A DNA stretch of 64,000 bases from Gallaecimonas mangrovi (GTDB lineage: Bacteria > Pseudomonadota > Gammaproteobacteria > Enterobacterales > Gallaecimonadaceae), in contig NZ_CP031416.1 in assembly GCF_003367375.1 (NCBI RefSeq), forward strand, positions 3,479,501 to 3,543,500, read 5' to 3'. The position numbers and the translations under genes were made by a program. Shown piece after piece: positions 1,713 through 16,709 of the stretch (the first letter of the stretch is position 1; each line of letters opens with the position of its first letter). Below the pieces are notes generated by a model, which was not told the DNA's origin, searched no databases, and saw only the letters and a program-made list of their open reading frames with translations.

Positions 1713-2612
1713 TTACCTGGCCGCAGCCAGGATGCGACAAACCAAACTTGAGAAGTCCATTCCCATGGCTTTAGCCGCTTTCGGTACCAGGCTCTTTTCC
1801 GTCATGCCCGGTACCGTGTTGACTTCAAGCAACTGGAAGTTGCCGGCGTTATCGAGCATGGCGTCCACCCGGCCCCAGCCTTCAGCGCCGACAGCGCTAA
1901 ACGCTTTCATCGCCAGCGCTTTTAGCGCTTCTTCTTGCTCGCTTGGCAAACCACAAGGAATTAAATATTCCGTGGTATTGGACTGATACTTGGCCTCGTA
2001 GTCGTAAAAGCCATTCGGGGTTTTCATTTGGATAACCGGCAATGGCTGGTTGTCCAAAATACCGATGGTAAATTCCGGCCCGCTTATCCAGCGCTCCACC
2101 AGCACAACGCTGTCTAACGCCAGCGCTTCGGCCACAGCCTCTTTTAGCTCGGCGACAGTGGTCGCCTTTTTCATGCCAAGGCTGGAGCCTTCCCGCGAGG
2201 GTTTAACCATGACCGCATCGGTCATGATGCTGGCCGCCAATGGGTCATCAAGGCCGTTGCCTTCAATGATCCAAAAGTCGGCGGTGGGCAGCCCCAGGCT
2301 TTGCCAAATCTGTTTGGTACGTACCTTGTCCATAGCCAGCGCCGAGCCCAGCACCCGTGAACCGGTATAAGGAATACCCAGCCATTCCAGGGCGCCTTGT
2401 ACGGTCCCGTCTTCACCACCGCGGCCATGTAAGGCAATAAAGACCTTGTCGAAACCTTCGCGGTGCAAATCTTCCAGCGGTTTTTCGGCCGGGTCGAAGG
2501 CATGAGCATCAACACCACCGGCTATCAGGCCACGCAGCACCGCCTGCCCTGAAAGCAGTGAGATATTCCGTTCTGCCGAATGGCCACCAAGCAGCACAGC
2601 CACTTTGCTCAT
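1713..2612 (-). CDS. ddlB: D-alanine--D-alanine ligase
   Basis: ATP-grasp ligase that joins two D-alanines for the UDP-MurNAc-pentapeptide, in the cytoplasm. Visible motifs are HSAERNISL near the N-terminus (the D-Ala binding Glu), [11 protein letters not shown] near residue 63, [12 protein letters not shown] in the central ATP-grasp domain, and [15 protein letters not shown] near the C-terminus (metal and second D-Ala site). At 299 residues it matches the short DdlB type of the dcw cluster rather than the longer DdlA type. The ATG overlaps the murC stop by 4 bp. Confidence 0.95.
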
Positions 2613-4024
2613 GCTTTGATCTCCAAACCGGCCTGGGCCAAGCCCCGCGCCAGCGAACCGACATTACCGGCGCCTTGGGTTATCACCAGGTCGCCCTCTT
2701 TCATTAAGTCAAACAGTGCCTTAGGCACATCATCGATGCTGGATACAAACACCGGTTCAAGCTTTGAGCGTGAACGAATGGTGCGGCACAACGAGCGGCT
2801 GTCGGCACCAGCGATAGGTGTTTCACCGGCGCTATACACATCCAGCATGATCAATACGTCGACCTGGCTCAGTACCTCGGCAAAATCCTCATAAAGGTCG
2901 CGGGTACGGGTGTAGCGGTGCGGCTGGAACACCATCACTAGCCGCTTGTCAGGCCAACCGGCCCGGGCGGCCTGAATAGTGACATCCACTTCCGAAGGGT
3001 GATGGCCGTAGTCGTCTACCAGCATCACCTTGCCTTTGCTGGTGGCAAACTCGCCGTAATGCTGAAAGCGCCGGCCAATACCCTGGAATTTGGCCAAAGC
3101 TGCCTGGATAGCGGCGTCGCTAATACCCAGGTCGGTGGCAATGGCAATGGCGGCCAGCGCATTTTGGGCGTTGTGCTTGCCTGGCAAATTCAAGGTGACC
3201 TTCAAGGGCTCGTGGCCGCTACGCTCCACCACAAACCGGCTTTGGTTAGCGCTTTGGGTAAAGTCGTGGCCGCGCACGTCGGCATCTTCATGAAAGCCGT
3301 AAGTGAGGTACTGGCGGCCCAGCACCGGCGCCGCCAGTTCACGCACCACGTCGTTGTCGATACAAAGCACCGCCAAGCCGTAGAACGGCAAGTTATGCAG
3401 GAAGTCGACAAAGGTGGACTTGAGCTTTTCAAAGTCGCCACCGTAGGTGTCCATGTGGTCTGGCTCGATGTTAGTGACCACTGACATCAACGGCTGCAGA
3501 TGCAAGAAGGAGGCGTCCGACTCGTCGGCTTCCGCCACCAAGTAGGTACCCGTGCCCAAACGGGCATTGGTGCCATGGGAATTAAGCAGACCACCAATCA
3601 CAAAGGTCGGGTCCAGGCCGCCTTCAAACAGCAGGCTGGAAACCAAGCTGGTGGTGGTGGTTTTGCCATGGGTACCGGCCACGGCGATACCTTGGCGAAA
3701 ACGCATTAGCTCAGCCAGCATCTCGGCGCGGCGCACTACCGGAATGCGGCGCTCGCGGGCTTCTGCGACTTCGGGGTTGTCGCCTTTAATGGCACTGGAT
3801 ACCACCACCACCGAGGCACCCTGCACGTTTTCGGCTTTGTGCTCGGTGAAAATGGTTGCGCCCAGGCCGCTTAGCCGCTCAGTAACGGCATTGCGGCTAA
3901 GGTCAGAACCAGTGATGTGGTAGCCTTCGCCCAGCAACACTTCGGCAATACCGCCCATGCCGGCACCACCGATGCCAACAAAGTGGATTTGCTCAACGCG
4001 GCGCATAGGGCCTGTTCTGGTCAT
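2609..4024 (-). CDS. murC: UDP-N-acetylmuramate--L-alanine ligase
   Basis: First amino-acid ligase of the peptidoglycan precursor pathway; it adds L-Ala to UDP-MurNAc using ATP. The N-terminal Rossmann part shows [12 protein letters not shown] (residues 14-25), the P-loop GTHGKTTT is at 117-124, and the central domain has [14 protein letters not shown] and the Mur-ligase NIEPDHMD region. The length of 471 fits the family. The chosen ATG at 4024 overlaps the murG stop as ATGA; a second ATG at residue 7 (MRRVEQIHF) also aligns with homologues and cannot be excluded. Confidence 0.95.
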
Positions 4025-13510: not shown

Positions 13511-14441
13511 AAGCGGCCTCCGTTCTGACAGCAACCCGCAGTACGGAACTGCGGGCGCGGGGGTTAGCCTGAGTTTCCTCTTCACTGGGGAAAATGGGTT
13601 TACCCAAACTTTTCAGCTTCATGTGGTGCTTAAGCTGGTCTTGGGTAACCGGTAATCCCGGTGGTAATTCCGGGCCTTTTTCCTGGACACGGATAAACTG
13701 CTTCACCAACCGGTCTTCCAGGCTGTGAAAGCTAATCACCGCTAAATGGCCACCAGGAGCCAGTGCTTTTAAGGCGCCATCAAGGGCCTGTTTGACCTCA
13801 TCCAGTTCACTGTTGATATAAATGCGCACCGCTTGAAAAGAACGGGTGGCTGGATGTTTGTGTTTTTCTTTTACCGGTACCGCTTTGGCAATCAAGTCAG
13901 CCAGTTCGCCAGTACGGCTAAGGGGGGCCTGCTCGCGGCGCTCAACGATGGCCCGCGCAATACGTTTGGCGAAACGCTCTTCGCCAAAGGTTTTCAGCAC
14001 AAAAGCAATATCGTTAGCGTCGGCGCGGTTCAGCCAATCTGCGGCACTTTGACCGGAGGTAGGGTCCATGCGCATATCCAGCGGGCCGTCGCGCATAAAG
14101 CTAAAGCCGCGCTCGGCATCATCCAGTTGCGGCGAGGAAACCCCTAAATCGAGCAGCAAGCCGTCCACTTTGCCCGCCAGTCCCAGCTCAGTTAAATACT
14201 CGGCCAGGCCGGAAAATGGCCCCTGCACAATGGAAAAACGCGGATCGGTAATGGTTTTTGCTTCGGCAATAGCCGCCGGATCCCGGTCAATGGCTACCAA
14301 GCGGCCATTAGGGCCGAGCTGCTCGAGGATGGCTCTGGAATGGCCACCGCGGCCAAAGGTGCCGTCCACGTACAGGCCGTCCGGCGCTATGGCCAGGGCC
14401 TTAATACTCTCGTTTAGCAGTACGCTGACGTGCACGGTCAC
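13503..14441 (-). CDS. rsmH: 16S rRNA (cytosine1402-N4)-methyltransferase RsmH
   Basis: S-adenosylmethionine-dependent methyltransferase acting on C1402 of 16S rRNA (formerly MraW). I choose GTG 14441, which overlaps the mraZ stop as GTGA. The protein then begins [13 protein letters not shown], matching family N-termini; the upstream ATG at 14537 would add 32 residues inside mraZ. Motif [11 protein letters not shown], is at residues 26-35. [12 protein letters not shown], the family signature [16 protein letters not shown] and the C-terminal ISFHSLEDR are all present. The product is 312 residues. Confidence 0.95.
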
Positions 14442-14893
14442 AATGAAAAATCCTTTAACGCATCGGTCAGTTCTAGGTCTTGGCTTACCGCTTCCATATC
14501 CACGGCAATTTGAGTTTGCCAAGCCACGTCTGACCAAATTTCAAATTTATTGAATTGCCCAACCAGCATCACCTTGCCTTCAAGGCCAGCGTGGTTGCGC
14601 AAAGGCCCGGCGAGTAACACCCGGCCCTGATTATCCAATTCCAACTCGGTGGCATGCCCCAGCAGCATTCGCTGCATACGCCTCTCGGCAGGCTTCATCG
14701 AGGAAAGGCGGCTGAGCTTGCGCTCAATGACTTCCCATTCCGCCAAGGGATAAAGCAACAGACAGGGCTGATGAATATCAATGGTGCAAACCAATTGGCC
14801 GTCGCAGTCAGCAACGAGCCGATCACGATACCGCTTCGGTATCGCGAGCCGACCTTTGCTGTCGAGACTGACCTCGTTTGCACCACGAAACAT
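14438..14893 (-). CDS. mraZ: Transcriptional regulator MraZ
   Basis: First gene of the dcw operon. MraZ is a ring-forming DNA-binding protein with two SpoVT/AbrB-like domains; in E. coli it represses its own operon. The two repeats are visible: [19 protein letters not shown] at the N-terminus and the second copy around [19 protein letters not shown], each with the (D)xKGR or (D)NQGR turn. The length of 151 is normal. Its target repeats lie just upstream at 14921-14950. Confidence 0.95.
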
Positions 14894-14920
14894 CGCTATT
14901 TGCCCCTTCGGTTAGCAAAT

Positions 14921-14950
14921 TAACCACAATTTCCCACAATTCCCCACGAT
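14921..14950 (-). promoter_or_regulatory. MraZ-binding repeats (three 10-bp direct repeats)
   Basis: Read on the minus strand, three consecutive 10-bp units carry GTGGGGAATT, GTGGGAAATT and GTGGTTAATT. They lie between the promoter at 14955-14984 and the mraZ start codon. MraZ is known to bind GTGG-type direct repeats with a 10-bp period upstream of its own gene, so these are very probably the autoregulatory operator. The third unit, nearest the gene, is the weakest match. Confidence 0.85.
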
Positions 14951-14954
14951 GCCA

Positions 14955-14984
14955 AGTCTAGGGGTTCGCATTCAACCTTGTCAA
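14955..14984 (-). promoter_or_regulatory. Promoter of the dcw operon (mraZ promoter)
   Basis: On the minus strand there is a perfect -35 TTGACA (14979-14984), an 18-bp spacer and a -10 TAGACT (14955-14960). Transcription would start close to the MraZ repeats, so bound MraZ would block initiation or early elongation. This is the only strong sigma-70 promoter I see driving the 14-gene cluster. Confidence 0.75.
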
Positions 14985-15454
14985 GAATGGTAAAAGTCAG
15001 TTGTGACGGGGGCTACAGCGACATCGTAACTGGCGCAGATGTAGGTGAGAAAAGGGCTGCAGAGACTTTCGCTAGCTGCCTGAAAAGACAGGAAAAATGA
15101 ACAATACTCCAACACAGTGGCAAAAAGTGGGGGCGAACCACGAAGCCAAAGCACAGCTTTGGCGCTGGTTCGCGCGAGCCCCAGGATGGGCGAAGCCCGA
15201 AGTCCAAGCGGTGCTTGGACGCGGCTGAGCGCCGGTACAAAGGATGTACCGGCCGGGTGCCTTGCCAGGGATGGCTTCTCAACACCTCGGCCAAACCAGT
15301 CTCGAAGACAATATATTCGTTGCCGGTAACCTTCACGCGCTAGAGAGAAAGCAACTCACACTCAAAGACCTGAGCCTCGGCCACTAACGCGGTTAAATAT
15401 TTGCCGCCATGGCCAGCGGCGCGATAAAGAGCCCGCTCATTCATCCCAGCCAAT
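14985..15454. other. Non-coding interval between dcw operon and rnpB
   Basis: This interval of about 470 bp has no credible gene. A 107-codon frame on the minus strand (13 bp inside either border of 15000-15340) has no recognisable domain, no good ribosome binding site, and runs straight through the palindromes at 15131-15275. The interval separates the mraZ promoter from the rnpB terminator. Apart from the hairpin cluster annotated separately I see no promoter or conserved motif here; 15276-15454 appears featureless. Confidence 0.6.
15131..15275. repeat. Cluster of strong hairpins with AGGA-type loops
   Basis: Several inverted repeats follow each other. (1) A nested stem: outer arms GCGAACCA (15133-15140) and TGGTTCGC (15166-15173), inner arms GCCAAAGC (15145-15152) and GCTTTGGC (15156-15163). 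(2) GCCC-CAGGAT-GGGC (15178-15191). (3) GTCCAAGC (15202-15209) with GCTTGGAC (15213-15220). (4) GCCGGTACA (15231-15239), loop AAGGA, TGTACCGGC (15245-15253). (5) GCCA-GGGA-TGGC (15264-15275). Three of the loops contain (A)GGA. This may be a dispersed palindromic repeat of the REP/MITE kind, or part of a structured RNA on the plus strand. I cannot tell which from one copy. Confidence 0.7.
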
Positions 15455-15482
15455 AAAAAAGCCGCCCAAAGGCGGCTTTTTT
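15455..15482 (-). terminator. Rho-independent terminator of rnpB (T-rich on both sides)
   Basis: The stem GCCGCC (15461-15466), loop CAAA and GGCGGC (15471-15476) is flanked by A6 on one side and T6 on the other, so it can work in both directions. It lies 13 bases past the RNase P RNA 3' end on the minus strand. Confidence 0.85.
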
Positions 15483-15495
15483 ATTTTTAAATTAA

Positions 15496-15853
<358 letters not shown>

Positions 15854-15857
15854 GCGC

Positions 15858-15863
15858 AGTATA
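15858..15863 (-). promoter_or_regulatory. -10 element of rnpB
   Basis: TATACT lies on the minus strand, ending four bases before the RNase P RNA 5' end at 15853, so spacing to the start point is right. I see no good -35. The region where it should be runs into the last codons of rsmI, whose stop is at 15876. Confidence 0.6.
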
Positions 15864-15875
15864 CCTGCGCCGGGC

Positions 15876-16709
15876 TCAGCCCTCCAGTCCTAGGTTATAA
15901 AGGGCGTTTTTCTTTATGCCAAAAGCATCGGCAACCAGGCTTGCGGCCTTTTTACGGGGCAAATCTTCAGCCAACGCCAAAAACAAGGTAACGGCCGCCT
16001 TGGGTAGGGCATCCGTTTTCGGTGCGGGTGCCACCATCAACACCATTTCCCCTCGTTGCCGATCGCTATCTTCTTTCAGCCAAGTAATGAGGTCGGCCAC
16101 CGGCGCACCATGAATGGTTTCAAAGGTTTTGGTGAGTTCCTTGGCCAGCACCACTTGCCGGTCGGGCCCGAAAACCGCCTGCATGTCATCCAGGGTATCC
16201 AGCACCCGCCGCGGCGCTTCATAAAACACCAAGGTGCGAGGCTCTTCGCTTAGTGCTTCAAGGCTACTGAGCCTGGCACTTTGCTTGGCGGGCAAAAAGC
16301 CTTCGAAAGCAAACCGGTCGGTGGCTAAACCAGAAGCACTTAACGCGGTAATAGCCGCGCAGGGGCCTGGCAGGGGAACCACTTTAATGCCGGACTGGCG
16401 GCAAAGGTTTACCAAGCTGTAGCCGGGGTCAGAGATAAGCGGCGTGCCCGCATCTGAAACCAACGCAATATCAGTACCCGCTGCTAATTTGCTGACAATA
16501 AAAGCCGCCTTTTGCTTTTCGTTATGGTCATGCAGCGACTGGGTGGGCGTGCGAATAGAAAAATGGTGCAACAGCTGGCCGGTGTGACGGGTATCTTCAG
16601 CGCAAATCAATGAAACTTCTGCCAAAACGTTCAGGGCGCGTTGGCTGATATCCCCCAAATTACCTAATGGGGTTGGTACGATATATAAAGTGCCGTGATT
16701 TTCATTCAT
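15876..16709 (-). CDS. rsmI: 16S rRNA (cytidine1402-2'-O)-methyltransferase RsmI
   Basis: Tetrapyrrole-methylase-fold enzyme that methylates the 2'-O of C1402 in 16S rRNA, the same nucleotide that RsmH modifies on the base. The protein starts [21 protein letters not shown] choose ATG 16709 because the 15 residues upstream of it do not fit the family. Other motifs are [23 protein letters not shown] and EGFLPAK. The product is 277 residues, near the E. coli length of 286. It diverges from lpoA and ends only 22 bp before rnpB. Confidence 0.94.

Follow-up and report, generated by a model that had tools for sequence, protein, structure and literature searches.

The tRNA-linked repeats (TLRs) of E. 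coli, known since 1978, had no assigned function (PMC8144298). The last 18-19 bp of such a TLR, at its 3′ end, repeat the 3′ terminus of the tRNA or 5S gene next to it, and CsrA interacts with three TLRs, which lie between the two terminators of the rrnA, rrnB and rrnD operons (PMC8144298). Transcription and CsrA interaction have been published for rrA, rrB and rrF, with binding assays for rrB, whose binding of CsrA in vitro depends on its GGA sites; these three are called unique among E. coli TLRs in their CsrA affinity, their deletion or overexpression had modest effects only, and relatives of rrB were found in 31 species from 12 genera of Enterobacteriales (PMC8144298). By the same account, scores for likeness to CsrB stay below 0.01 for the 19 E. 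coli TLRs found in tRNA operons. Within the literature searched, which lay outside subscription journals, the term “tRNA-linked repeats” occurred in PMC8144298 and in an editorial, and among the articles listed by wider searches no other was recognised.

We analysed a window of 64,000 nucleotides from Gallaecimonas mangrovi (contig G000:C1, positions 3479501-3543500; the G000 genome is a single contig of 4.07 Mb), in which a 150-nt hairpin array lies between mraZ and rnpB. The repeat family of this array resembles the E. coli TLRs in consisting of short repeats of several hairpins that stand at stable RNA genes and come with a duplicated gene end, in carrying GGA loops such as those of rrB, which bind CsrA in vitro (PMC8144298), and in having a companion module homologous to TLRs. 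The window units differ from TLRs in being another module without a direct match to them, located beyond the rnpB terminator on the opposite strand with no duplicated end detected, and copies elsewhere in the genus differ in that they also occur at tRNA 5′ ends and in that one of them adjoins rnpB with the rnpB end duplicated. With the CsrB, CsrC and RsmZ RNAs (RF00018) the array shares several GGA-loop hairpins in the same CAGGAYG context, whereas it is not a free-standing many-site RNA and RF00018 had no match at its gathering score in the window, where the RNase P RNA alone reaches such a score.

Three other described elements were also considered. The TwoAYGGAY RNA motif, listed for human gut, gammaproteobacteria and Clostridiales in Weinberg 2010 (PMC2864571), records in its name two AYGGAY loops such as those of hairpins C and D described below, and was absent among the matches to E 5 in 14890-15500. 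The Beggiatoaceae TAACTGA repeats, reported in their own source paper to have no GGA motif, and the Alcanivorax CsrR1/R2 RNAs, described as single RNAs and not as repeats, were rejected.

Organisation of the array between mraZ and rnpB

The array is flanked by mraZ, the first gene of the dcw cluster (14438-14893, minus strand; Pfam MraZ, 137 bits), and by rnpB, encoding the class A RNase P RNA (15498-15847, minus strand; Rfam RF00010, 321 bits). A terminator-like element, formed by a perfect inverted repeat of 15 bp together with T and A tracts (15452-15485), lies just past the rnpB 3′ end and, judging from this position, would serve rnpB on the minus strand. The original prediction had placed the array between the dcw operon and rnpB, which is confirmed, and had described five successive hairpins, three with GGA in the loop, as either a dispersed repeat, which it preferred, or part of a plus-strand RNA ending at this terminator.

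The five inverted repeats are real, and the folded sequence 15120-15282 reached -83 kcal/mol, with z-scores against shuffled sequences of -4.8 on the plus strand and -5.2 on the minus strand, and none of 200 shuffles equalled it on either strand. They are more ordered than a succession of five hairpins: the array is a direct repeat of two diverged tandem units (spacing 57 bases, 71% identity over 45 nt) with a common plan of an outer helix, a short-loop hairpin with an AAGC-NNN-GCTT core and a GGA-loop hairpin, C, to which unit 2 alone adds a hairpin D.

All elements were read from the plus strand. Unit 1 (15130-15196) comprises the outer helix GCGAACCA/TGGTTCGC (15133-15140/15166-15173), the inner hairpin GCCAAAGC-ACA-GCTTTGGC within it (15145-15163) and hairpin C, GCCC-CAGGAT-GGGC with loop CAGGAT (15178-15191). 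Unit 2 (15187-15281) comprises an outer helix with a tandem G-A mismatch (15190-15197/15223-15230), the short-loop hairpin GTCCAAGC-GGT-GCTTGGAC (15202-15220), hairpin C, GCCGGTACA-AAGGA-TGTACCGGC (15231-15253), and hairpin D, GCC-AGGGAT-GGC (15264-15275), which has a hexaloop of the ANGGAN type. Both units were matched by the R1 model described below (G000:C1:3494630-3494696, 58.1 bits, E 3.9e-10, and G000:C1:3494687-3494781, 75.6 bits, E 3.2e-14), and both are among the 12 sequences from which that model was built.

As had been noticed from the letters, GGA is found in three loops; all three stand in a CsrA context of the kind seen in CsrB and RsmZ RNAs (CAGGATG, AAGGATG and AGGGATG). The CsrB repeat CAGGA(U/A/C)G and the CsrA SELEX consensus RUACARGGAUGU were both taken as quoted in PMC7652899; the loop of hairpin C in unit 1 fits the former, and hairpin C of unit 2 (the fourth hairpin, for which a likeness to the CsrA consensus had been proposed) carries GTACAAAGGATGT, which is near the latter with one A extra. 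Allowing at most one mismatch, GCCAGGGATGGC from hairpin D occurred 58 times in the genome versus 14 times for the reversed control pattern.

The sole sigma-70-like promoter detected in 14850-15900 was a consensus match ahead of mraZ on the minus strand (TTGACA-18-TAGACT, 14955-14984), which points away from the array. This agrees with the earlier remark that a clear promoter was lacking, inasmuch as no sigma-70-like promoter was found on the plus strand of that interval, sigma-70-like sites being the type covered by the scan. Upstream of the array, a block at 15079-15129 (CCTGAAAAGACAGG..AAATGAACAA..CTCCAACA..GTGGCAAAAAGTGG) is well kept between G000 and the congeneric genome G002, with G001 and G004 retaining it in part; a promoter that escaped recognition, or a sequence involved in controlling mraZ, could lie here.

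Detection of a dispersed repeat family

A blastn search with 15100-15300 returned the query itself and two weak relatives (E 0.0013), all other hits having E values of at least 0.1, so the copy search proposed in the original prediction would have come close to failing. One of the blastn relatives, used in turn as a query, hit ten other places at E 2e-4 or better. We built a covariance model, R1, from 12 units of the window's own genome, and this model gave 21 matches there at E 0.01 or better (its 12 sources, one identical copy and eight further matches), from which we conclude that blastn is insensitive as a copy-number test. The window array thus has several related genomic copies beyond chance, and across five genomes of the genus (G000 to G004) R1 gave 135 matches, with 21, 37, 23, 46 and 8 in the respective genomes. 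The preference for a dispersed repeat is therefore supported.

Searching the order with R1 at E 0.001 and strict filters yielded matches in 14 of 295 genomes, of which nine belonged to other genera and had one or two matches apiece, and by eye GGA-loop hairpins with other stems are kept at 10 out-of-genus loci of the order. R1 matched nothing in 200 kb of E. coli. Using a home-made gene finder, which at its first threshold missed mraZ, 103 of 104 clusters were intergenic.

Among the 12 own-genome copies, 86% of stem cells were paired versus 75% in shuffles and 25-48% in slid controls, with 33 double changes in stems versus 11.4 in shuffles; these R1 statistics are partly circular because the model was built on the genome's own copies, a limit of which the R3 search of E. 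coli described below is free. Read from the alignment, window unit 1 and two other copies (L025a and L030) form the full 8-bp outer helix with largely different sequences, and in several other copies a tandem G-A mismatch recurs at one fixed pair of positions in that helix. Truncated and hybrid copies also occur in the family. One locus of G003 (L218, 6229-6706) has four tandem units, three of them with the first half swapped for another palindrome (GGTGGGTTACGCTTCGCTAACCCACC), an instance of module swapping.

REP and BIME elements, which RAYT transposases mobilise, are intergenic palindromic repeats favouring gene 3′ ends, and in this the window's family is similar to them. It differs in its conserved GGA loops and duplicated RNA-gene ends, which to our knowledge are not features of REP. 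A REP/RAYT system was rejected after a search for the Y1 transposase family PF01797, which had no match in the window's own genome, in G001 (37 R1 matches) or in G004, and had three matches in G002 and two in G003, none of them at a listed R1 match.

Conservation of GGA loops

To count loops, the 133 units were reduced to 118 unique units by removing those with an identical 50-base core. Hairpins in the unique units with arms of at least 5 nt and loops of 5-6 nt carried GGA in 30 of 55 cases and TCC in one of 55, versus 46 and 34 of 804 hairpins of the same class in control stretches taken at those loci. Two or more GGA hairpins were present in 84 of the 118 unique units, versus 11% of mononucleotide shuffles. 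The commonest loop contexts over all 133 units were CAGGACG, AGGGATG, CAGGATG, AGGGACG, ATGGATG and ATGGACG, which are near the CsrB repeat and the SELEX consensus given above. Thus the stems vary and covary while the loops keep GGA on one strand.

The G000 genome has one CsrA gene. Three tandem sub-threshold matches to RF00018 were seen at G000:C1:1200899-1202128, possibly a tandem set of CsrB-type genes, and each other genome of the genus has two or three such matches.

Detection of a companion module homologous to E. coli TLRs

A second GGA-hairpin module lies within 300 bp of 60 of the 133 window-type units, on the same strand in 52 cases and on the opposite strand in 8. To model it, 34 copies were collected with a regular expression demanding GG in the first loop and 27, all from the genus, were aligned to give the model R3, the seven omitted being three long variants, one degenerate copy, one copy cut short and two near-duplicates. 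The GGA of hairpin 1 is invariant in all 27 source copies, at a position where the collecting expression itself demanded GG. The best-scoring R3 copy, itself a model source, stands between mraZ and rnpB in G001, the place taken in the window by the two units, and R1 and R3 matches overlap in a few cases.

Although built from genus copies only, R3 recovered rrA, rrB and rrF in E. coli at 63.7 bits (E 7.8e-15) and four tyrT-operon units at E 1.6e-5 to 8.8e-4. These were its seven best matches in 200 kb of E. coli, the next having E 0.64, a specificity that refers to the four 50-kb regions picked around known TLR loci that make up the 200 kb. The Rfam family RtT (RF00391) matched the tyrT units and not the rrnB one, and over an R3 match in another family (L243) it barely reached its cut-off (45.5 versus 45 bits). 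On the strength of these matches, the companion module is homologous to E. coli TLRs. Since R3 had no match to the window copy and R1 none in the 200 kb of E. coli, the link of the window array to TLRs goes through mixed arrays and not through direct homology.

Matches to R3 were found in 10 of 14 genomes searched, numbering 32, 40, 22, 17 and 9 in the five genomes of the genus; a genome from another family of the order had 44. In the genus, 10 of 14 TLR-like modules near stable RNA genes are antisense to them. Sense modules downstream of tRNA-Ala or tRNA-Ser, the classical placement of a TLR, were seen in L172 (2793-2853 and 3229-3289), L146 (4604-4677) and L208 (4869-4943).

Genomic location of the copies in the genus

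Within 400 bp of a tRNA, 5S or rnpB gene we found 38 of the 133 units, 27 antisense and 11 sense, a raw share of the units. For 34 of the 133 units, a flank ending at or near the unit's first bases recurred beyond the unit with a score of at least 30, versus 2.2% of mispaired controls. By our reading, 17 of these 34 duplicated flanks include the end of an RNA gene, and some of the rest are plain tandem amplifications or copies of terminators; the association with RNA-gene ends thus holds for part of the copies. The duplicated 5′ ends are those of tRNA-Lys (in G000, in G002 and four times in G003) and of tRNA-Ala (in G003), the duplicated 3′ ends in the genus are those of tRNA-Ala, tRNA-Arg and tRNA-Ser, and at the window's own site G004 has a 28-base copy of the rnpB end. 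In another family the tmRNA 5′ end is likewise duplicated.

In L146 (2501-2682) and L192 (2398-2579), a tRNA-Lys gene is preceded in sense by a copied tRNA 5′ fragment and a GGA-hairpin unit, and in L208 of G003 (2009-3212) this pair is present in sense four times over. Such an arrangement before tRNA-Lys would place the hairpins in the tRNA leader, whereas E. coli TLRs are described as 3′-linked.

We then considered clusters of R1 and R3 matches taken together. The 116 clusters included 27 at the edge of a locus, 17 in gaps longer than 1500 bp, 3 over a predicted gene and 33 with an RNA gene as neighbour. The other 36 stood between coding genes, 17 of them between convergent, 19 between co-directional and none between divergent genes, versus 3, 23 and 25 of 51 control intergenic regions. 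An earlier count on R1 alone gave 28, 35 and 4; it treated the two strands jointly and may have divided a few clusters wrongly, whereas the combined count was made strand by strand. Between co-directional genes the GGA strand was sense in 9 clusters and antisense in 10 (14 and 21 in the R1-only count). Several copies adjoin terminator hairpins.

History of the mraZ-rnpB site

Units or modules of the family occupy the mraZ-rnpB site in the same orientation in four of the five genus genomes; in G003 there was no R1 match at mraZ and no rnpB within the 1.5 kb examined. Unit 1 is common to G000 and G002, with a compensatory A-T to G-C change in a stem, as are hairpins C and D of unit 2. G001 has a TLR module with hairpins C and D at this site, and G004 a degenerate unit behind the duplicated rnpB end. 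The sequence after the array aligns poorly between species. We therefore regard the site as one long occupied by the family but with a changing set of modules.

The window copy is separated from rnpB by 217 nt and by the terminator, is antisense to it and so lies outside any tRNA or rRNA operon; no duplicated RNA-gene end was found at it at a score of 26 or more, and R3 did not match it at E 1. On these three grounds we did not file it as a TLR and treat it as a sister module travelling with TLRs. A 12-of-16 match between the two flanks of the array (15110-15125 versus 15280-15295) was too weak to count as a flank duplication. With neither a detectable promoter for the GGA strand, nor a duplicated end, nor a direct TLR match, the window copy is probably a little-expressed relative and not a free CsrB-like RNA.

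Survey of Gammaproteobacteria

At E 1e-4 or better, R3 matched 158 of 369 gammaproteobacterial genomes, representing 126 of 272 sampled genera with the window's own included. For an out-of-genus sample, we took one copy each from 50 further genomes in the best-scoring part of this list and added 19 out-of-genus loci, yielding 69 loci with 84 matches, or 77 unique copies after dropping identical ones; the orientation and loop figures that follow describe best-scoring copies and not weaker ones.

A tRNA or tmRNA gene lay within 300 nt of 47 of the 77 copies, which were sense to it in 46 cases and antisense in one, 35 being downstream of the RNA gene and 12 upstream; the remaining 30 had no tRNA, tmRNA, 5S or rnpB gene within 300 nt. 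The end of the RNA gene was duplicated (score of at least 30) for 26 of the 47 copies, versus none of 47 with shuffled flanks. Scored within loops, 67 of the 77 copies had GGA in loop 1 and 70 had it in loop 4, shares that are biased upward because R3 rewards GGA and the collecting expression asked for GG, a bias that leaves the sense orientation unaffected. The sampled out-of-genus copies, largely sense-strand, tRNA-linked and with GGA loops, fit a role as RNA. With copies so widely spread, a single protein and a single binding assay allow the question of what TLRs are for to be tested across many species, and a physical connection between the making of stable RNA and the Csr system suggests itself.

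Interpretation and alternative explanations

The computation established many copies, covarying stems, GGA loops on one strand, a neighbourhood of TLR modules, duplicated flanks and rarity between divergent genes. We consider it probable that the array consists of two tandem units of a dispersed GGA-hairpin repeat travelling with TLRs, that sense copies of this repeat would titrate CsrA and that the window copy is a passenger. Being a repeat and binding CsrA, which had been put forward as competing ideas, are not rivals here, for the repeat itself is made of GGA-loop hairpins that adjoin a TLR-homologous module.

Copies would originate at the borders of structured RNA genes or terminators, through insertion or duplication with the boundary after GGG, and the duplicated end would keep the host RNA gene whole. 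The loops would bind CsrA wherever the GGA strand is transcribed, as published in vitro for E. coli rrB, and sense copies transcribed together with tRNA or rRNA may then titrate CsrA to a degree that follows the synthesis of stable RNA. The window copy has its GGA strand opposite to both rnpB and mraZ, shows no promoter, and is most likely a passenger member of the family whose GGA strand is transcribed little or not at all. Against this explanation speak the 27 of 38 units and 10 of 14 TLR-like modules that are antisense to stable RNA in the genus, the lack of a sense bias between co-directional genes, and the modest phenotypes described for E. coli (PMC8144298).

A tentative extension, which we would not expect to hold as it stands, is that TLR-type repeats form a class-wide layer of CsrA control. 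They would be inserted at the ends of tRNA, tmRNA, 5S and RNase P genes with duplication of the host end, the GGA hairpins in primary transcripts of stable RNAs would lower free CsrA as tRNA and rRNA synthesis rises, and the window array would belong to a branch that has spread away from sense positions.

The alternative that survives best, which we nevertheless hold to be rather unlikely, is a selfish or neutral palindromic repeat without RNA function, whose GGA was inherited from a founder and whose quasi-palindromes are perfected by template switching. This would account for copies that show no strand preference between co-directional genes and are mostly antisense to stable RNA in the genus, for the truncated and hybrid copies, and for the lineage-specific turnover of modules at the mraZ-rnpB site. 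Template switching should, however, invert loops as well, yet TCC was found in one hairpin loop of 55 and GGA in 30; 46 of the 47 RNA-adjacent copies sampled outside the genus are sense, and GGA is kept per loop in about nine tenths of the 77 copies, though by a model that favours it.

An sRNA dedicated to sequestering CsrA, about 350 nt long, transcribed from the plus strand with a start between mraZ and the array and an end at 15452-15485, appears improbable. The units or modules in the same orientation at the site in four of five genomes, the block at about 15079-15129 kept just upstream between G000 and G002 and the compensatory change in the stem of unit 1 are in keeping with it. The stand-alone plus-strand RNA of the original prediction is nevertheless not supported: no sigma-70-like promoter was seen on that strand in 14850-15900, nothing in the window reached the gathering score for CsrB, and the terminator assigned to it stands where it would serve rnpB on the minus strand and so provides no evidence for it. 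The GGA loops moreover number only three, the sequence after the array aligns poorly across species, the modules at the site differ by species with no R1 match at mraZ in G003, and sub-threshold CsrB candidates exist elsewhere in the genome.

A structural element at gene 3′ ends (an RNA 3′ stabiliser, a processing site or a back-up terminator) with incidental GGA loops is very improbable: both counts of gene orientation and the copies adjoining terminator hairpins agree with it, while the window units have no U tract, structure alone does not require a GGA loop and the sense strand is not preferred.

Additional observations at repeat copies

At one TLR-like copy (L286, 1557-1636) the first hairpin appears inverted, with GCTCCCGGC replacing the GGGA loop, possibly a loop inversion by template switching. 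JUMPstart RNA elements were found near two copies (L026, 1907-1944, and L133, 1046-1083).
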